Below are positions 1 through 8,715 of a stretch of DNA of 8,715 nt, piece by piece. Positions within the stretch are counted from its first letter, which is position 1. The number at the start of each line of letters is the position of its first letter. The notes beneath the pieces were generated by a model. The model did no database searches, was not told the origin of the DNA, and was given only the letters and a program-made list of their open reading frames with translations. The position numbers were made by a program, and so were the translations under genes. Source of the stretch: JBFJWU01 sp041623475 [NCBI: bacterium] (GTDB lineage Bacteria > J088); NCBI GenBank assembly GCA_041623475.1, contig JBFJWU010000131.1, positions 1 through 8,715 on the forward strand. The letters are read 5' to 3'.

Positions 1-1804
1 CATCATTGGCACCCCAGCACAGCAGCTGCCCATCGGTCCGGACCCCGCACGTGTGGTCCGTCCCGGCATCAATCGCTCGCCACAGGTTGGCCCCTGTAAC
101 CAAAGACGGTACCCAGGTCGAGGCGGTTGTTCCGTCGCCCAACTGCCCCCTGTCGTTGTTGCCCCAGCACCAGGCGCTGGCGTCGCCACTGACCGCGCAG
201 GCATGCGCCGGGCCAACCGTCACGGTTACCCAGTCCGAGAAATCGCCCACGGTCGTTGGAATGGTGACCTGCGATTGGACCGTATCTGTTCCAGCCTGAC
301 CGGAATCGTTGTTGCCCATGCATCGAACCGTGCCGTCGGTCCGTATGGCGCAGGTTGTGGTGCCCCCGGCATCCAGCGCACTGCCGCCGGTTTGCCAGTC
401 CATCAGTCCAAGTTGCTCACTGATTGGATTCGAACCGCCCCCGGAAATATTGCCATCGCCAAACTGACCATCCTGTTGCAACCCCCAGCTCCATAACGAT
501 CCATCCGCACTGATTGCAACGGAGTATCGTTCTGCAGCGGCCAGCGCCGTCCAACTGCCGGGCCATGGCCCTGTGATCGGCACAGCACTGCGTGCTGGCT
601 GGGATTGTCCCAACTGTCCAAAAGAATTATTGCCCCAGCAGTAAGTGTTTGCACTGCTATCCAGCGCGCATCCATGGTCCTCGCCTGCGCGAACCGCCGA
701 CACAGGCTGGCCGAAGCCCACGGTCCCGGGTCGAGTCAGTGAGTGGGAATACCCAATCCCCAGTCCGCCATCCTGATTCGTCCCCCAGCACGCCACTTGT
801 TCCGGTCCGCGCACACCACAGGACCGGTTGCCACCGACGCTGACTTTGTTCCAGTCTGAGCCGACTGCCACCTGCAATGGCGCGACAGTTGCGGCAGGCA
901 CGCCGGCCTGTCCCTGGGCCAATTCACCAAATACGTCAGTTCCCCAGCACCACAGCGTCCCCGACTGTCGCGTTCCACAGGTATGGGTCACACCGGCGCC
1001 GACCGACTGCCAGTCACTGAATCCATTAACTTCCATAACCGGCAACTCGCGACTGGTCGCGGTCCCGTCACCCAGCATGCCCGCCGTGTTCCAGCCCCAG
1101 CACCACAATTGGCCAGCCTGATCGATGGCGCACGCGTGATGCCAGCCAACATCAATGGACCGGAACGACTGCGGCCCTTCAATCACGGCGACCGGTACCG
1201 TACTGCAGGAGCTGCCGCCATCGCACGTCTCAGGCCCGGCAAATACGCCACTTCCCAGGTTTCCCGCGTGGTTCCGCCCCCAGCACCATGTTCCGCTCAT
1301 TGAAACTGCACACGAGTAGCTGTCGCCGGATCCAATGTCCAGCCAGCGTCCCGGGATCGTCAGCGGCATCGCATGCGCAGCCGTGTCGGTGGTGCCCTGT
1401 CCCAGTTGCCCGTGGGCATTGGCTCCCCAGCAATACAGCGAATGGTCAACGGCAATCGCGCAGGTGTGATCGATCCCGACGGCAACGTCACGCCACTGGC
1501 TGGGGCCGCCAGTCACCGTTGCCGGCTGTGTCAGCGCTGCGACTGCGGTCCCCTGTCCGGCCATGCCCTGCCCATTGGACCCCCAGCACAACAGCGTCAG
1601 GCTGTCATCAATCGCACAACTGGTGCTGCCGTTAGCGCTGACATGCAGCCAACTGGCTGCGGCGCCCGATACCTGCGTTGGCACGCTGGCCCCCAACGAG
1701 GCCCCGGTACCCAGCTGGCCGGTACTGCCCTGCCCCCAGCACGACAGCGTGCCCGTCGAATTCGAAACCGCGCAACTGTGCGAAATCCCCACCGACAACC
1801 GCTG
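1..1804 (-). repeat. Array of twelve RCC1 repeats inside the lipoprotein gene
   Basis: The plus strand shows CCCCAGCA-like words about every 150-180 bases (near 12, 161, 631, 783, 941, 1096, 1278, 1425, 1581 and 1733). They are the reverse complement of codons for Cys-Trp-Gly. Each unit also has an upstream H/x-(S/T/A)-C-(A/G) motif about ten residues before the CWG Cys. The units near 322 (Cys-Met-Gly) and 484 (Ser-Trp-Gly) are degenerate. RCC1 domains usually have seven blades, so twelve or more implies two propellers or an extended array. The array continues past the left edge. Confidence 0.9.
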
Positions 1805-3160
1805 CGGCACCTGGATCAACACGGTCATCGTCGCCTGGGCGGACCACGTGACACCATCACTGACCCGGTACGAGAAGCTCCCGTCCTGAATACTGTCAGT
1901 GGTTGGCGTAAACAGGAATGAACCCGACATCGAATCAACGATGACCGCAGTGCCGCCTGCCGGCGCACCGGTCAATTCGTAGAACAGGGCATCCCCGTCC
2001 GGATCCGACGCTGGCAGCAAATCAGTCACAGCCACGTTGGACAATGTCGCGGAATAACCACCTGTCGCAACGGGCGGATCATCGTCCCCGGTGATTGTGA
2101 TCGCCACACTGACCGCAGACGCCGCAGTTACACCGTCATTGACGGAGTACCAGAACACATCGCCGCCAGTAAAGTCTGTCGCCGGCAAATAGAAAAAACC
2201 ACCATCGGTTTCCAGCGTCAAGCTGCCCTGGGCAGGTCCGGTGACCAGTGTCGCCATCAATGTGTCGCCGTCAATGTCGATGTCATTGGCGACAACGCCT
2301 GGTCCTGCGACCGCCAACCACGTATCTTCAGCACCGGCGTAGGAATCTGCGACGCCCACCGGTGGATCATTTGTATTGATAACATTGATCGACACGGTCC
2401 CCAGGTTCGACGACGCGGCACCGTCTGTTGCTTGGACACGAACAATATCCATCCCCGTAAAATCCGCGTCCGGCGAATAGGTCAGTTCGCCAGTCAGGGC
2501 GTCGATGACGGCCAGGCCGTTGGTCGGGGCACCGCCCCCCGGGATAAAAAACGTAATTGCGTCGCCGTCCACGTCCGTGCCGGTCACGGTCCCGGTCACG
2601 GTCCCTTCTTCCAGGACATTAATGGCCAGGTCGTCGACGGTCGGGGGATCATTAACTGGCGTGACCGTGAAATCCAGGCCCACTGGTAACGAAGCTGACG
2701 TGCCGGTTTCGGCAAAAACAATCAGCCGATCAGGTCCGAAAAAATTTGAGTCCGGCCGGTACCGATACGTACGCTCGACCTGGTCTGTTGCACCCGACGC
2801 GCCAGCATCGACGACACTGATTGCACCGCCGCGCGGCAGCCGCTCGAATCGCAACTTGACCAGGCTGCCGTCGGTCACCGGATCAATCGCTACAGTCAGC
2901 AGGAAATCCAGGGTGCCGTCCTCGGCCAGCGTGCCGCCCGTCCCGGTGATCGTCAGGCCATATTCAATGCCGGACGACCCACCCGATCCATCAACGGTAT
3001 CGGTAACGGTCGAAACAACTTCCGTTATTGACGTCGGGCCCGTCGCCGGGTCGCCGCCCTCGAAACCGGGTCCACGCACGCAGCCCACCAGCACCGCCAG
3101 CGCGGCCCCGACCAACAATCGCGCCGACTGCGCGCGGTATCCCGGATAACCCATTCCCAT
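1..3160 (-). CDS. Large lipoprotein with cadherin-like domains and RCC1 repeats (partial, C-terminus beyond left edge)
   Basis: An uninterrupted minus-strand frame runs from an ATG at 3160-3158 to the left edge, giving 1053 codons with no stop. Residues 15-27 form a hydrophobic stretch ending in the lipobox L-V-G-C (Cys27), so it should be lipidated and exported; there is no Asp at +2, which in enterobacteria would favour the outer membrane. About four tandem cadherin/Ig-like domains follow (roughly residues 55-168, 169-263, 264-359, 360-450). They carry recurring motifs such as NDPP, DxDGD and Y-x-P-x(3)-F-x-G-x-D. From about residue 453 on there are twelve RCC1 repeats of about 50-54 residues (CWG-x-N-x-x-G-Q-L-G type), which normally fold as beta-propeller blades. 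Expected role: surface binding or adhesion; the ligand is unknown. An in-frame ATG at 3154 is an alternative start; no clear ribosome binding site separates the two. It is divergent from the pilin operon, so a joint function is inferred only. Confidence 0.93.
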   Translation of the reverse strand, partial: MGMGYPGYRAQSARLLVGAALAVLVGCVRGPGFEGGDPATGPTSITEVVSTVTDTVDGSGGSSGIEYGLTITGTGGTLAEDGTLDFLLTVAIDPVTDGSLVKLRFERLPRGGAISVVDAGASGATDQVERTYRYRPDSNFFGPDRLIVFAETGTSASLPVGLDFTVTPVNDPPTVDDLAINVLEEGTVTGTVTGTDVDGDAITFFIPGGGAPTNGLAVIDALTGELTYSPDADFTGMDIVRVQATDGAASSNLGTVSINVINTNDPPVGVADSYAGAEDTWLAVAGPGVVANDIDIDGDTLMATLVTGPAQGSLTLETDGGFFYLPATDFTGGDVFWYSVNDGVTAASAVSVAITITGDDDPPVATGGYSATLSNVAVTDLLPASDPDGDALFYELTGAPAGGTAVIVDSMSGSFLFTPTTDSIQDGSFSYRVSDGVTWSAQATMTVLIQVPQRLSVGISHSCAVSNSTGTLSCWGQGSTGQLGTGASLGASVPTQVSGAAASWLHVSANGSTSCAIDDSLTLLCWGSNGQGMAGQGTAVAALTQPATVTGGPSQWRDVAVGIDHTCAIAVDHSLYCWGANAHGQLGQGTTDTAAHAMPLTIPGRWLDIGSGDSYSCAVSMSGTWCWGRNHAGNLGSGVFAGPETCDGGSSCSTVPVAVIEGPQSFRSIDVGWHHACAIDQAGQLWCWGWNTAGMLGDGTATSRELPVMEVNGFSDWQSVGAGVTHTCGTRQSGTLWCWGTDVFGELAQGQAGVPAATVAPLQVAVGSDWNKVSVGGNRSCGVRGPEQVACWGTNQDGGLGIGYSHSLTRPGTVGFGQPVSAVRAGEDHGCALDSSANTYCWGNNSFGQLGQSQPARSAVPITGPWPGSWTALAAAERYSVAISADGSLWSWGLQQDGQFGDGNISGGGSNPISEQLGLMDWQTGGSALDAGGTTTCAIRTDGTVRCMGNNDSGQAGTDTVQSQVTIPTTVGDFSDWVTVTVGPAHACAVSGDASAWCWGNNDRGQLGDGTTASTWVPSLVTGANLWRAIDAGTDHTCGVRTDGQLLCWGAND
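2581..2604. repeat. Two perfect tandem copies of a 12-base unit in the cadherin-like region
   Basis: The unit CGGTCACGGTCC occurs twice head to tail. On the coding (minus) strand it encodes Gly-Thr-Val-Thr twice, in the loop just before a DxDGD motif of the second cadherin-like domain. The unit length is a multiple of three, so gain or loss of a copy keeps the frame. It looks like a recent small duplication. Confidence 0.8.
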
Positions 3161-3208: not shown

Positions 3209-3237
3209 TTGCCAGCCTGCCGCCGGGTCGGTAAACT
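3209..3237 (+). promoter_or_regulatory. Candidate sigma70-type promoter of the pilin operon
   Basis: TTGCCA at 3209-3214 (five of six matches to TTGACA) is followed after exactly 17 bases by TAAACT at 3232-3237 (four of six matches to TATAAT). Transcription would start near 3244 and leave an untranslated leader of about 75 bases before the ATG at 3318. It lies in the only intergenic gap upstream of the operon. No convincing promoter for the minus-strand lipoprotein gene could be picked out in the same gap. The assignment rests on motif match and spacing only. Confidence 0.5.
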
Positions 3238-3317: not shown

Positions 3318-3533
3318 ATGCGCATGAACTCAGCCGCTCGCAAACAGCAGTCTGGCCAGGGGATGTTGGAGTACATCCTGATCGTCGTCTTTGTCGCCGT
3401 CGCCGGGATTGTCATCTGGCGTACGTTTGGACAGACGGTCAAGGAAACAGTGACCGAGTCCAACAAGGTCATAGGCGAAGAAACATCTGAAATCCTGAAT
3501 CAGGCCCAAGAAGACGCCGACAAATCTCGGTAG
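3318..3533 (+). CDS. flp: Flp-type (type IVb) pilin
   Basis: A 71-residue protein that fits the major pilin subunit of a Flp/Tad pilus. The start at 3318 is set by the GGAGGG ribosome binding site. A short basic leader (residues 1-13, with Arg8 and Lys9) ends in Ser-Gly, followed by QGMLEY. Cleavage after Gly13 would place Glu at +5 and Tyr at +6, the classic Flp processing pattern G|xxxxEY. A single hydrophobic helix follows (about residues 20-37), then an acidic amphipathic tail rich in Glu, Asp and Gln (residues 44-71). The mature form would be 58 residues, within the usual Flp size. It is the first gene of the rightward operon and alone has a strong ribosome binding site, as expected for the most abundant product. 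The prepilin peptidase and assembly ATPase are not in this window. Confidence 0.85.
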   Translation: MRMNSAARKQQSGQGMLEYILIVVFVAVAGIVIWRTFGQTVKETVTESNKVIGEETSEILNQAQEDADKSR

Positions 3534-3650
3534 CCGGGACGAGAACAATCGACATCCGATCACCAAGATTCGGCCGACTGTTCAAATCCGAAAAACGCCC
3601 CGAACGCCAACAAGCTCTACTGAAACGGGCGACATCGCAGTCTGGCCAGG
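3347..3650 (+). repeat. 14-base identical words at the processing sites of the pilin and TadE-like genes
   Basis: GCAGTCTGGCCAGG occurs at 3347-3360 and again at 3637-3650, a spacing of 290 bases. Both copies are read in frame as Gln-Ser-Gly-Gln, the peptide that spans the predicted prepilin cleavage site in both proteins. The identity extends over synonymous positions, which suggests common descent by duplication, or gene conversion, rather than protein-level selection alone. Confidence 0.7.
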
Positions 3651-4435
3651 TTTTCCTGGAAACAGCAGTTATTCTGCCGATCTTCCTGTTCGTCGTAATG
3701 GGACTGGTCCAGCTGCTGCTGTTAACGCACGCGATAGTCCGGCTGGAGGCCGCCGCCGATTTTGCCGCCCGGTCCTACCTGGTCCACGCCAGGCAGACAT
3801 CGGTTCGCATCGATGTCCGGGGATCCTTGCGCGCTCATGAATCGGCAGCGATGTTGCTGGCGCCAGCCAGTCCGACAGCTACAGGTGCCGCTCGCAGTAT
3901 CGCTGGGCAGTTCCTCGAATGGGGCGGCGACCGCGTCGGTTTCGGTGGCCGTGCGGCCAACGTTATCGACCGAGCCGTGTCCGGTGCCGTCAATTCGATG
4001 GACCGCGTGCCGGTAGCCGGCGACCTGTTCATCGGCCTCGACAAGTTTATCTATGCGTACGACTATTCCACTATTGGCGTCTGCCACCTTGCAAAACCAG
4101 ATGGCGATCAGAACGACTGGACCGACACCGCGCTCCGGATGACAGTGTCGTTCAGCTACCCGCTGTTGGTGCCGGTTGTCGGTCCAATGCTTGCCGACGG
4201 GACAAAGGCACCCGGGTCAATGGCGGGATTTCGCAGCAGCCATATCGCGTCGGGCCTGAACACGTTAACAGGGACCAACTTGTCCGATGCCATCCAGAGC
4301 CTCGCCGACATTGCCCACCCGATATTTGCGGCATTCCCGAAACGCCAATTGCGCGCGACCGTTGACTTTCTCTGGCCCCACGCGGACCCGCCGGAACCTC
4401 GTCATCAGCACGCCTGCAAGGGTGCAAAAGCGTGA
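3548..4435 (+). CDS. TadE-like pseudopilin with no canonical start codon
   Basis: This frame is open from 3491 to the TGA at 4433-4435. The conserved TadE-type N-terminus is coded at about 3638-3730: QSGQVFLET, then ILPIFLF and a hydrophobic helix. The first ATG, at 3698, lies after this motif and would remove the processing site. No ATG, GTG or TTG occurs between 3534 and 3697. The start at 3548 (ATC, weakly preceded by GGGACGAG) is therefore provisional; ATC 3554, CTG 3578 or CTG 3620 are alternatives. With the 3548 start the protein has 295 residues, with predicted cleavage after Gly33 and Glu38 at +5. The rest is a soluble, probably periplasmic domain; a segment SFSYPLLVPVVG near codons at 4150-4180 resembles the strand region of TadE/G proteins. 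TadE proteins are minor pseudopilins needed for Flp pilus assembly. The stop overlaps the next start (GTGA). Confidence 0.75.
   Translation: MDIRSPRFGRLFKSEKRPERQQALLKRATSQSGQVFLETAVILPIFLFVVMGLVQLLLLTHAIVRLEAAADFAARSYLVHARQTSVRIDVRGSLRAHESAAMLLAPASPTATGAARSIAGQFLEWGGDRVGFGGRAANVIDRAVSGAVNSMDRVPVAGDLFIGLDKFIYAYDYSTIGVCHLAKPDGDQNDWTDTALRMTVSFSYPLLVPVVGPMLADGTKAPGSMAGFRSSHIASGLNTLTGTNLSDAIQSLADIAHPIFAAFPKRQLRATVDFLWPHADPPEPRHQHACKGAKA
4418..4422 (+). promoter_or_regulatory. Ribosome binding site of the TadG-like gene
   Basis: AAGGG lies nine bases before the GTG at 4432, inside the end of the TadE-like gene. It supports the GTG start that overlaps the upstream stop as GTGA, so translation is probably coupled. 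Confidence 0.55.
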
Positions 4436-6279
4436 ACCACGGACGAGCAAATGGCTCGCTCCAGGGCCCGGCCGTCGTGGCCATCCTGGTCGTTTTTGTG
4501 ATGATCCAGGTGGTAATCGCCACGGTATCGTCGACCAGCCGGAAGATCCGCAACCAGGCCGCTGTCGACGCCACGGTGTCCAGCGCCGCCAGCGTCCAGG
4601 CGCTGGCGCTCGACGTCAACGCGGTGGTTAATGACGCGGTCCTGGCATTGCACGGAATCGAGGCACTCGTCCTGATGGTCGGTGCGATTGATGGCCTGGC
4701 CAAGGTGGCATCGACGCGGCAGATGCCCGAAGGCATTCGCACGGTTGGTGAGGCCCTTGACCTGGCAAAGGAGTTGTTCAAGTCGAACCAGGACATCGCG
4801 GCGTTTCGCGACGATCTAAACCGGTACATATTCCCCGCCGGTACCTTGCTGACAATGCAGGCCGCCAGCCTGGCGGACCAATCTGGCGCGACAATTCCAT
4901 ACCCCACCGGTCGTGATGATTTTGGAGATCCCGAGCCCCGAGACAATGCAGATTCCGGTGGACCATCCTGCGTGGACAGTATTACCGGCAGTGGACGAGC
5001 CGAACTGCCGCAACCCGACACACCTTCGCGCAACCTTCCGCCCGCGGCTCTTGCGATCCAGGCCGTACCGATTGACAGCGCCCATCTGTTGGGTGCAATG
5101 CTGTTCAAAATGATACGTGGACCAATTGACGACGGTACGGGACAGGTTTCCAGCAAACTGCAGGAACGACTGGACCTGGACGCGGCAATCCAATCCTGGC
5201 TGGGCCGACTCGAAGAACAGGTCGAGGATTCGATCCAGACAGCAATTGACGAAACCATCGGCAAGTTGCCTGATTTCTCCTCACCTTCGGTCGATCGCCA
5301 GATCGATTATCTGTGCGATTTGACACCCCAGGTCATTTCCGACATCGATGGAGGCTCGTTTCCGGACCGGACCTGGCAGCGGGAATTATCCCGGTTGCAG
5401 CAGGATATCGGCCTGGACGCCGAACTCGGCGATGCCCTGGATGGCAATCGCCTGGAAACAGCGCTCAGCCAGAGCGTCCTTGGATCCCTGGACATTGACC
5501 TGGGCAGCGGATCGGTCCTGTCTGCAATGTCGGCGCTGGACGCCGGCAGCGATGCTGTGAATCAGATGAAATCCGGGATTCGACGCCAAATTGCAGCCGT
5601 CGCCGGTAACAGTTGGGAAACATTGGCGGCTGACGAGGTCAATTGGCGCCTGGGACAATCCCGGAACTATATCAGCGCCAAGTGGATCCGGGGTGTGGCG
5701 ATACTGGGTCCGGACCAGCAGGAACGATCAAAGGCCGAAGCCGCGGACATGTTGTGCGGCCGCCTGCGCGGGTTCGGGAAAAGCCTGGCAACGCTGGAAC
5801 AGGATATTCGCGCGTCGATCGAATCTGCCGTCGCTGCAGCAATCAGTGTTGCGATCAGCAAAGTGACCCTGTTTTCCGAACAGCTCAAGCTCGAAGCTGC
5901 GGATGCCGTCGGCGATGCCCAGGCCAGGGCCATGTCCAAAATGGACGAATGGGCCGCGAGGATCATCTGTGCGAGCGTAGGCGACAAAGGACTGAATAAC
6001 CTGGTTGACGGCGATTTTCCGATGCCGACCGTAATGACGCCGGACTTTTACGACCGTCAGGTCCTGGCAGCTGCGCGGGTCAGTGGCTTCGGGTCCAGAG
6101 ACATTGGCATTTCAACCGCACAGGCCCAACCTGTTGCCAGTCGCCGGTCACAACAACCGGGGTTTCCGATACTGGTCCCGGGATTCACGACCCGCCTGAT
6201 TCCCGTGGATTTTCCTGAACGAGTGCCTGAACTGCCGTCCCAGATCAAGGGGTTTGCCCGAGATGCGTTACAGCACTGA
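4432..6279 (+). CDS. TadG-like membrane-anchored protein
   Basis: A 615-residue protein starting at GTG 4432, overlapping the upstream TGA. Residues 13-32 form one transmembrane helix (PAVVAILVVFVMIQVVIATV), followed by RNQAAVDATVSSAAS at residues 40-54. This matches the start of the Tad domain of TadG/PilX-like proteins (hydrophobic helix, then Q-A-A-x-D and an Ala-rich helix). Ala occupies the +5 position after Gly12, where the pilin and TadE-like proteins have Glu, so prepilin-peptidase cleavage is not expected; known TadG proteins are also thought not to be processed. The remaining 550 residues are mostly helical, Ala/Asp/Gln/Leu-rich, with only four Cys and no von Willebrand factor A metal-site motif seen. 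Likely role: inner-membrane-anchored periplasmic component of the pilus machine. Family assignment rests on the N-terminus; the body is not recognised. Confidence 0.75.
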   Translation: MNHGRANGSLQGPAVVAILVVFVMIQVVIATVSSTSRKIRNQAAVDATVSSAASVQALALDVNAVVNDAVLALHGIEALVLMVGAIDGLAKVASTRQMPEGIRTVGEALDLAKELFKSNQDIAAFRDDLNRYIFPAGTLLTMQAASLADQSGATIPYPTGRDDFGDPEPRDNADSGGPSCVDSITGSGRAELPQPDTPSRNLPPAALAIQAVPIDSAHLLGAMLFKMIRGPIDDGTGQVSSKLQERLDLDAAIQSWLGRLEEQVEDSIQTAIDETIGKLPDFSSPSVDRQIDYLCDLTPQVISDIDGGSFPDRTWQRELSRLQQDIGLDAELGDALDGNRLETALSQSVLGSLDIDLGSGSVLSAMSALDAGSDAVNQMKSGIRRQIAAVAGNSWETLAADEVNWRLGQSRNYISAKWIRGVAILGPDQQERSKAEAADMLCGRLRGFGKSLATLEQDIRASIESAVAAAISVAISKVTLFSEQLKLEAADAVGDAQARAMSKMDEWAARIICASVGDKGLNNLVDGDFPMPTVMTPDFYDRQVLAAARVSGFGSRDIGISTAQAQPVASRRSQQPGFPILVPGFTTRLIPVDFPERVPELPSQIKGFARDALQH

Positions 6280-6679
6280 CCTGGACTCCGGATCTGGCCA
6301 TTCGGGCCTGGCAATGGTTGAAGGCCTGATTGTCATCCCGATCCTGGCACTGTTATGCCTGGCACTGGTGCACTTCGCCCATCGCGCCCGCATTGCTGTG
6401 ACACTGGAACGCACCGTCCACCAGGTGACGATGATTCGCGTCCAAAACGGGCCGGAAGGACTCCTCAAAAGGCTGTCTGCGCTGGCCACGCCGAATGGTG
6501 GGCAGTGTTCCAGGCGGGGCGCACGACGGCGCAAGGTCGTTTGCGACCTGGGCAACGGGATTCACGTATCCCGCCAGGAAACGATTGGTCACCAGCCGAT
6601 TACTGCCTGGGTTGAACATCCGGACGGCTCACGCCTGATGCAGCGAACCGGCGCGCGCTACGACATCTGGCCGCAATGA
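6263..6679 (+). CDS. Small TadE/TadF-like pseudopilin
   Basis: A 138-residue protein. The ATG at 6263 is preferred because AAGGGG (6247-6252) precedes it by ten bases; the in-frame TTG at 6254 sits directly after that motif. The gene overlaps the TadG-like gene by 17 bases. A leader of 15 residues ends in His-Ser-Gly, followed by LAMVEG and a hydrophobic helix with Pro26. Cleavage after Gly15 places Glu20 at +5, as in the other two pilin-like proteins. Residues 38-138 form a basic, soluble domain with two Cys (about residues 79 and 91) that could form a disulphide in the periplasm. Size, position after a TadG-like gene and sequence pattern fit the minor pseudopilins TadE/TadF. Which of the two it corresponds to cannot be said. 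Confidence 0.75.
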   Translation: MRYSTDLDSGSGHSGLAMVEGLIVIPILALLCLALVHFAHRARIAVTLERTVHQVTMIRVQNGPEGLLKRLSALATPNGGQCSRRGARRRKVVCDLGNGIHVSRQETIGHQPITAWVEHPDGSRLMQRTGARYDIWPQ

Positions 6680-8715
6680 CTGGATCGGCACCAAAGACCT
6701 GGCTGGTGGCAGTTATCTGCCTGTTAATACCGCCTGCCAACAGTCTGGGCAAATGGAATGACGTCCAGCAATGCAATCAGCCCGGCAACCTGGCCGACCT
6801 CAGCGGCGGAGCCAACTACGGGACCTCGTGGATCGATACGTTCATGTGCGGTGCAGACCCGTCCCAAGGCGGCGAGTCGTTCCTGGACTGGTACAAACGT
6901 CCTGCGTCTGAACTGATGGCAACGACCAGCAGCATGTACCAGTTGGGGTACCTGAACCTGAACGGACTGCTGGATGGATCGATCGACACGTGGCAGCGAC
7001 AGGGCACGTCCGGCAACGCCGCCGGTGTACTGGATGACTTGATTGATTCCTACTATCCAGATGAACTGAACATCCCCGAAGACATTGAACTGGGCGGGAC
7101 CGAATGTGTCGGCCCGCTGGCCGTCGCCTGTACGTATCAGATGGACGATCTGCGGCGGTTCCACACCGGTGGCAGCGGTCACATGGACCGTCAACTGTGC
7201 GGTGTCCGTGGAACGACCGACAACCTGGCAAAACAGGGTGCCCGCTACAGCGCTGGCCTGGGCCTGCAAACCATGGGCAAGCTGCGCGACCTGAGTATCC
7301 GCCTGTATGCGATCCAAATGGCGGCATTGCAGGCCAGTACCGCCATGCAATGGGACCAGGACGATCCGTTCGCCAACCATGTTCCCGTGATGCGACTGCC
7401 CGAGTCAGGGTCGTCAAACACGGCCCGGGTCGTTGACCTGTCCCGGAGCGGCAACGCTGACACGCTGCCACGGATGACACTGAAATTCCAGGACGAATCC
7501 TACGTTTTCCGATCCCCCCTGTTGTGGGCCATCAAGCCGGATTCGTTTCGCCGCAAGTTGGAATTAGAGAACCATTGCACGTGGAAGCAGGATTTTGCGG
7601 ACATCGTTGTTGATGCGTCGGACAAAGAGTGCCAGAGGTTGTCTTCAGCCCGTTTGAATCGCCGGGACAACCTGCGCGACACGTTCAGCGACGACGACCG
7701 CGGCGAACCCGAAGAGGTGTATCGCGGAATCAACGCGCGTGTCGAAAATGGCCAATGCCGTATGTCCGGCAGTATCCAGGTCCGCGAAGACTGGAAGACC
7801 CGGGTCCGGATTGCCACAGAGGACGCCGATCCATGGTTGCGGTCAATGTGGTGGTTTGATGCGGACAACCAACTGAAGTTCCGCCCTGCGCCGATGGATT
7901 ACCAGACGTGGTTTCGCCTGAAACGCTGGGACAATCTGTTCCAAACCTTTTACCAGCTGGAGCTGGACAATATTCGCAACAGTGGCCTGTTGAATATTGA
8001 CAACCAGGTCAGGTTCCAGAAGGTCGTTCGCCTTGATTTCGACAATATCGCGATTGCGTTCGTATTCCGACATTTCCGGTTTGACGCGAAACGCCTGGTC
8101 GCCGAGTTCTGGCGCTGGCGCACCAAAGCTCTGAAAGCGCTGTTTCACGATGGACTAAAGGGCAAACTTGCGGCCTCGGCGTTGGTTGCGATGGGGCCGG
8201 CCTCGGGGGTCGTCTGCGCAATGCCCGAGGCACTGATGCTCACGCAACAATCACCCTACAAGCTGGAAACCTATACCAATGTCGATCCAGTCAGTGGACT
8301 GGGAATACCGGGTGCCAATGCAATTGGCAAGCTGGGAGGCGACTTTGTCCTCAAGAAAATTGGCCAATGGTGTCGGAAACTGACCACATTGGCCGGAAAA
8401 CAAATGGATTATGCATCGCCGGAAGACTTTGCCGACCACCTCGAAAATGACCTGGGTTTCAGGATCGAAGGATTTGTCGCGGCTGCGTTTCGGACGTCCC
8501 CTAGACGTACCGGAGGAGTCCGGGTGTTTCGACTTCAACTGCCTGATGCGCGGCGCTTTCTGGCGCTGCACGCGGCACTGACGATGCAGATGATGACTCC
8601 GACAGACCTGTTTCCCAACGCGTATAAAGATATTGATCCCGGCGACTGGGCACGGTCTGCGAATTTCCGGCCGGAATTCCTGGTTGGTGCCATGATGCGA
8701 CCGGGTTCAGTACCC
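6676..8715 (+). CDS. Large secreted protein of unknown family (partial, C-terminus beyond right edge)
   Basis: The ATG at 6676 overlaps the upstream stop (ATGA) and no Shine-Dalgarno is visible, so translation probably depends on the preceding gene. The frame stays open for 680 codons to the right edge. The N-terminus is a Sec signal peptide: Lys7, hydrophobic core WLVAVICLLIPPA, likely cleavage after Ser23 (A-N-S). Cys15 is not in a lipobox. The mature part has ten Cys (33, 58, 144, 152, 175, 301, 319, 361, 514, 566) and many Trp and Tyr, typical of a disulphide-bonded extracytoplasmic protein. A strongly basic, aromatic stretch (about 460-497, with FWRWR) precedes a mildly hydrophobic segment (498-516) that might insert in a membrane. 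No family was recognised. As the last visible gene of a Tad-like operon it could be an outer component, tip protein or exported substrate; this is inference. Confidence 0.85.
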   Translation, partial: MTGSAPKTWLVAVICLLIPPANSLGKWNDVQQCNQPGNLADLSGGANYGTSWIDTFMCGADPSQGGESFLDWYKRPASELMATTSSMYQLGYLNLNGLLDGSIDTWQRQGTSGNAAGVLDDLIDSYYPDELNIPEDIELGGTECVGPLAVACTYQMDDLRRFHTGGSGHMDRQLCGVRGTTDNLAKQGARYSAGLGLQTMGKLRDLSIRLYAIQMAALQASTAMQWDQDDPFANHVPVMRLPESGSSNTARVVDLSRSGNADTLPRMTLKFQDESYVFRSPLLWAIKPDSFRRKLELENHCTWKQDFADIVVDASDKECQRLSSARLNRRDNLRDTFSDDDRGEPEEVYRGINARVENGQCRMSGSIQVREDWKTRVRIATEDADPWLRSMWWFDADNQLKFRPAPMDYQTWFRLKRWDNLFQTFYQLELDNIRNSGLLNIDNQVRFQKVVRLDFDNIAIAFVFRHFRFDAKRLVAEFWRWRTKALKALFHDGLKGKLAASALVAMGPASGVVCAMPEALMLTQQSPYKLETYTNVDPVSGLGIPGANAIGKLGGDFVLKKIGQWCRKLTTLAGKQMDYASPEDFADHLENDLGFRIEGFVAAAFRTSPRRTGGVRVFRLQLPDARRFLALHAALTMQMMTPTDLFPNAYKDIDPGDWARSANFRPEFLVGAMMRPGSVP

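Follow-up and report, generated by a model that had tools for sequence, protein, structure and literature searches.

A Flp/Tad pilin operon followed by a gene for a large protein, apparently exported and of no recognised family

We analysed a window of 8,715 nucleotides, contig JBFJWU010000131.1 of the bacterial assembly GCA_041623475.1 (JBFJWU01 sp041623475), which carries four pilin-type genes of a Flp/Tad (type IVc) system and, directly after them, a fifth gene whose large product appears to be exported. The window seems to be an entire contig whose two ends each fall within a gene: a minus-strand open reading frame (ORF) runs off at base 2, and another, starting at 6676 on the plus strand, runs off at 8715. 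An initial annotation, made from the letters alone, had described the five genes as a compact Tad-like operon with a large secreted last member that it could not place. Here we report how far that description holds, and how the fifth protein may be understood.

Results

The five genes are listed in Table 1. Their reality and coordinates were borne out. The genes are tightly packed: tadE1 and tadG-like overlap by 4 bases (GTGA), tadG-like and tadE2 by 17, and tadE2 and the fifth gene by 4 (ATGA), the last being the overlapping stop and start noted initially. Only the flp-tadE1 junction is without overlap. At the base composition of the window, a stop-free frame of 680 codons such as that of the fifth gene is expected by chance with a probability of about 1e-11 per frame. 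Judged by motifs and family matches, the locus is a Flp/Tad (type IVc) structural operon.

Table 1. Features of the plus-strand pilin operon and its fifth gene
Feature	Positions	Strand	Evidence
flp, predicted major type IVc (Flp/Tad) pilin, 71 residues	3318..3533	+	PF04964 (below curated cut-off), prepilin motif, alignment to Moraxella bovis Flp
flp-tadE1 gap	3534..3619	+	no ATG, GTG or TTG in any frame
tadE1, predicted long TadE-type pseudopilin, 271 residues from CTG 3620, start uncertain	3620..4435	+	PF07811, prepilin motif, alignment
tadG-like, putative (Tad-domain-like) large minor pilin, 615 residues	GTG 4432..6279	+	small profile and pairwise alignment; without Pfam match
tadE2, predicted short TadE/TadF-type pseudopilin, 138 residues	ATG 6263..6679	+	prepilin motif; PF07811 below cut-off
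fifth gene, large protein (680 residues so far, open at window end), apparently exported and without known family	ATG 6676..8715	+	start resembling a signal peptide (by reading), followed by 10 Cys; prepilin motif absent

Prepilins were sought among closed ORFs of at least 60 residues with a scan for G/A-x4-E and a hydrophobic stretch. The products of flp, tadE1 and tadE2, three of the five operon proteins, carried the motif, and none of the 55 other closed ORFs of that size in the window did. Applied to six reference plasmid loci, the same scan marked 13 of 619 ORFs. When these were matched to the annotation tables, 12 lay at Tad operon genes (4 of them annotated only as hypothetical) and one lay elsewhere. 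The scan is not fully sensitive: in the Caballeronia locus (L008) no pilin was picked up, and in other loci some TadE/F/G genes escaped it.

The flp gene has a GGAGGG ribosome site just upstream, and its product a prepilin site, SG^QGMLEY (G^-x4-E-Y). Flp matched the Pfam model Flp_Fap (PF04964) with an expectation value (E) of 2.7e-4 and 21.1 bits, which is below the curated cut-off of 32.2. Its best match among 17 reference proteins was the Flp of a Moraxella bovis plasmid (NZ_CP087831), with a pairwise alignment z-score of 20.8, a measure in which plain shuffles overrate membrane proteins. Read from CTG 3620, tadE1 matched TadE (PF07811) at 4.4e-7 and 30.4 bits, above the cut-off of 22.9, and aligned with Agrobacterium TadE at z 11.8; a reading that began at the first ATG (3698) gave no Pfam match. 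No ATG, GTG or TTG occurs in any frame from 3481 to 3697, ahead of the TadE1 leader peptide, so that this gene has an uncertain start and either uses a rare start codon or carries a sequence fault. Other candidate starts are an in-frame CTG at 3578 and ATC at 3548 or 3554. TadE2 has the prepilin site SG^LAMVE, matched PF07811 below the cut-off (E 0.088, 13.4 bits) and aligned with a Rhizobium TadE2 at z 5.1.

The TadG-like protein aligned with a Moraxella TadG-like protein at z 5.6. It scored 12.6 bits against a Tad-domain profile made of three sequences, two near-identical ones from Rhizobium and one from Moraxella, while other window proteins scored at most 4.7 bits or were not listed. This score was reached by 1 of 2000 shuffles in which the first 34 residues were kept, and by 45 of 2000 when only those 34 residues were shuffled. 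No VWA match, D-x-S-x-S motif or prepilin motif was found in it. We consider the TadG-like label likely to be correct, though not secure. Of the four pilin-type genes proposed initially, three are thus supported by a prepilin motif, and the TadG-like one by weaker profile and pairwise evidence.

The fifth protein differs from the other four. Its best N-terminal 19-residue hydrophobic window averages 1.38, compared with 2.59-2.99 in the others, and a second hydrophobic stretch lies near residue 498. The scan found no G/A-x4-E, and no lipobox was seen by reading. The proposal that it is Sec-secreted agrees with a signal-peptide-like start, a feature judged from reading the N-terminus. At E of 1 or below, the protein had no match in Pfam, NCBIfam, PHROGs or PADLOC-DB, and its sole match among PDB sequences was short and at chance level (E 0.3). 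Dividing it into three pieces and relaxing the limits to as much as E 10 added a single chance-level match in Pfam (E 0.16) and none in NCBIfam. With no credible match in these five libraries, the protein appears to belong to no recognised family, as first proposed, and profile searches of the 6676-8715 product matched no known Tad or conjugation component. Several candidate relationships were rejected. The single D-x-S-x-S (residue 254) was dropped as a VWA/MIDAS site, 0.2 such motifs being expected by chance; similarity to the TadG-like protein (best BLASTP E 0.037, over 43 residues) was not accepted; similarity to TadE1 (best E 1.7) was dropped, as was a role as a conjugation component, which had no NCBIfam match.

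Relatives were sought in genomes, plasmids and viruses. The scans of species genomes and viral contigs require exact identities of 8 residues and detect close relatives only. With this scope, the fifth protein gave 6 pattern stretches in species genomes, none confirmed, and none in viral contigs. It had no plasmid match at E 0.01; at E up to 10, four chance-level plasmid records (best E 3) and four chance-level phage records (best E 1) were obtained. For the pilin-type proteins, viral contigs held 7 (TadG-like), 3 (TadE1) and 36 (Flp) pattern stretches, none confirmed, and the window's Flp motif gave 0 stretches in species genomes with a pattern that was too narrow, Leu/Phe being fixed after GQGM. 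On plasmids, TadE1 had one match at E about 1, and Flp, TadG-like and TadE2 had none. No description of a Tad-pilus protein like the fifth came up in literature searches confined to open-licence papers.

The initial annotation had contrasted the window with characterised tad loci, in which the pilin is normally followed by peptidase, secretin and ATPases. This is right for the common order. In the Azospirillum and Photobacterium loci, TadE/F/G come at the end, after Flp, the peptidase, CpaB, the secretin and further genes; in Caballeronia, Flp comes after the TadE/G genes. Tad minor pilins can also stand apart from motor genes, as in an Agrobacterium plasmid where TadG, TadE and TadE have none annotated within about 12 kb of them (24-kb stretch). 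Even so, there is precedent for placing the structural genes first with an unplaced exported protein next to the pseudopilins, in loci of Rhizobium and Moraxella bovis. In the two Rhizobium records read, pRL11 (R. johnstonii 3841) and p42e (R. etli CFN 42), the order is a small pilin-like gene, peptidase, TadE, Tad, TadE2, an unplaced exported protein, CpaB, ATPase, two platform proteins and FHA. The pilin-like, TadE, Tad-domain and TadE2 genes and then an apparently exported protein thus follow one another as in the window. In contrast to the window, the prepilin peptidase stands between the pilin-like gene and tadE, and the pilin-like protein is annotated as hypothetical and has no PF04964 match.

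The Rhizobium exported protein (about 300 residues) has a signal-peptide-like start, lies between TadE2 and CpaB (14196-15122 in locus L006, 11298-12212 in L013) and is not detectably similar to the window's fifth protein. The 308-residue form had a viral family as its sole Pfam match, which was below cut-off and not credible (E 0.0085). A relative of it occurs in 89 plasmid records, all from Rhizobium or Neorhizobium, and among the 25 of these that were listed, 22 also overlap a gene named CpaB. The Rhizobium loci with this protein also hold an FHA-domain protein, and FHA proteins have been noted for the Kil system too (PMC8460266).

The Moraxella bovis plasmid (NZ_CP087831) has the order Flp, TadG-like, TadE-like, an apparently exported protein of 208 residues, a small pilin-like protein and CpaB. 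As in the window, Flp is followed by TadG-like, TadE-like and apparently exported proteins, these three being annotated as hypothetical. Unlike in the window, there is one TadE fewer ahead of the exported protein, which is not detectably similar to the fifth protein. On the same plasmid, an RHS-repeat gene (L005, from 22104 onward) comes after the Tad locus, immediately behind a distal TadE gene. Among the remaining reference loci, the Halomonas one (L007) had no recognisable Tad operon among its ORFs. The Ensifer stretch (L011, 7793-15551) was rejected as a Tad locus, its secretin-search match sitting in a type III secretion gene cluster. The Cupriavidus (L012) and Rhizobium sullae (L014) loci are unannotated and were left out of the gene-order comparison.

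These comparisons bear on two points of the initial annotation. That only fibre and pseudopilin parts are grouped here is not supported: in Rhizobium the exported protein is directly followed by CpaB, the ATPase and the two platform proteins, the window ends before that position, and with the contig stopping inside the fifth gene it is unproven that motor genes are absent. As for recurrence, a similar order does occur in the two Rhizobium plasmids; the same five-gene set with this protein was not found in searches that are weak for distant relatives.

Discussion

What we observe is an otherwise ordinary pilus system with one unplaced part. The reading we favour, with somewhat less than even confidence, is that the operon encodes a Tad pilin and a tip trio in KilL-N-M order, together with a Sec-exported partner, the fifth protein, which may dock on the tip as an adhesin or cargo. 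The flp product would be the fibre subunit, and TadE1, the TadG-like protein and TadE2 would be minor pilins, arranged as a long TadE, a large TadG and a short TadE/F. Read together with the Myxococcus Kil work, this trio may prime polymerisation and cap the pilus. The 4-base overlap makes it probable that the fifth gene is translationally coupled to tadE2. Its product would be exported through Sec, processed to a soluble and probably disulfide-bonded non-pilin, and docked on the minor-pilin tip, in the way of PilY1 on type IVa pili or TcpF on TcpB. Since the TadG-like protein lacks a VWA match, we infer that binding could be the task of a separate, exported protein. Besides the motifs, family matches and overlaps, the apparently exported protein that holds the corresponding place after TadE2 in the two Rhizobium plasmids speaks in favour of this reading.

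A model for the trio comes from Myxococcus, whose TadE/F/G-like minor pilins KilL4, KilN4 and KilM4 (mxan_4658-4660) have been modelled as a heterotrimer at the pilus tip (PMC12075869). Four such Kil complexes, acting in combinations, detect various prey and kill them, and trios of this kind have been proposed for the Tad pili of other bacteria (PMC12075869). The window resembles KilL-KilN-KilM in having an extended TadE-like, a large TadG-like and a short pilin protein (271, 615 and 138 residues), a likeness in order and size pattern. In contrast, no exported non-pilin partner is named for the Kil tip cluster in sections 8 and 16 of PMC12075869. In Caulobacter, the TadG counterpart CpaL is likewise a large minor pilin proposed for the Tad tip, where it has been modelled, and it bears a VWA domain (PMC12607857), whereas the window's TadG-like protein has neither a VWA match nor D-x-S-x-S. 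At the tip of type IVa pili, PilY1 is a non-pilin that bears a VWA domain and is joined to minor pilins (PMC12607857); the fifth protein compares with it by analogy only, as a large exported non-pilin that would work with minor pilins.

Several results weigh against the docked tip partner. The TadG-like protein, on whose label the tip trio depends, has no Pfam match, PF13400 included. It aligned with Agrobacterium TadG at z 1.2 only, and the Rhizobium Tad protein was not among its best five alignments. Past its membrane segment, the fractions of shuffles reaching the score were 0.031 for Moraxella, 0.211 for Rhizobium and 0.915 for Agrobacterium, which is weak. The fifth protein, for its part, had no PilY1/PilC or VWA match in Pfam, whole or in three pieces, nor in NCBIfam. 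Its best z-score against all 17 reference proteins was 1.1, with no similarity to the Rhizobium or Moraxella proteins in the corresponding slot. Single-sequence AlphaFold models were unusable, with a mean predicted local distance difference test score (pLDDT) of 30.9 for the whole protein and 38.8 for residues 280-440, and the contig end truncates the protein. Neither a relative nor a structure gives it a place, and one case is not enough to show that the association is conserved.

The main rival, which we hold to be on the unlikely side, makes the fifth protein a periplasmic or outer-membrane factor for assembly or anchoring of the Tad machine (an alignment, secretin-associated or peptidoglycan-bound protein) that is not on the pilus. 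In the two Rhizobium plasmids the slot has TadE2 on one side and CpaB on the other, next to envelope parts of the machine, and a cysteine-containing, apparently exported protein suits this role equally well. However, the fifth protein matched no model of a Tad component in Pfam or NCBIfam, it has no lipobox by reading, and the lipoprotein accessory factors are far smaller.

It is improbable, in our estimate, that the fifth protein is an effector or enzyme encoded in the operon and exported by the Tad system or Sec without being part of the pilus. Such a role would fit the link between Tad-like systems and contact killing in Myxococcus (PMC12075869, PMC8460266), as well as the failure to find a structural family for the protein. 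However, no credible enzyme or toxin domain emerged from the five libraries, and no immunity-like gene is visible up to the contig end. A very divergent TadG-type minor pilin seems more improbable still: a position after the pseudopilins, large size and a hydrophobic N-terminus would suit it, but the protein lacks both G/A-x4-E and a long N-terminal hydrophobic helix, and the operon already holds a TadG-like gene, itself motif-less. Finally, an assembly artefact or chance neighbour is hardly credible, for although the window looks like a whole contig cut at both ends and tadE1 without a common start codon may reflect a sequence fault, GC content is fairly even across the contig (500-base windows range from 0.54 to 0.66), all six genes have similar third-codon GC (0.67-0.70) and the ATGA overlap ties tadE2 to the fifth gene.

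Beyond the docked partner lies a broader proposal, which we regard as distinctly unlikely. The fifth protein would found a family of Sec-exported, non-pilin Tad tip proteins, the type IVc counterpart of PilY1, in a slot beside the TadE-TadG-TadF trio that is filled by unrelated proteins in different bacteria and gives the pilus its target. Work on minor-pilin tips is only beginning to show how Tad pili choose their targets (PMC12075869). A secreted non-pilin made with the trio and docking on it would, if real, give Tad pili a further layer comparable to PilY1, and target-specific proteins could then simply be looked for in the gene that follows the last pseudopilin.

Other features of the contig

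A single sigma-70-like site lies at 3209-3237, compared with 0.4 expected, and was not counted as evidence. No Rfam match or tRNA was found in the window. The minus-strand gene at 2-3160, cut by the contig start, encodes a large, lipoprotein-like and unrelated protein and points away from the pilus operon. It combines tandem-95/cadherin-like repeats with many RCC1 repeats (PF25390 at 1.7e-90, PF13540, PF17963), and its RCC1 part has plasmid matches in 66 records from many phyla, at less than 60% identity.

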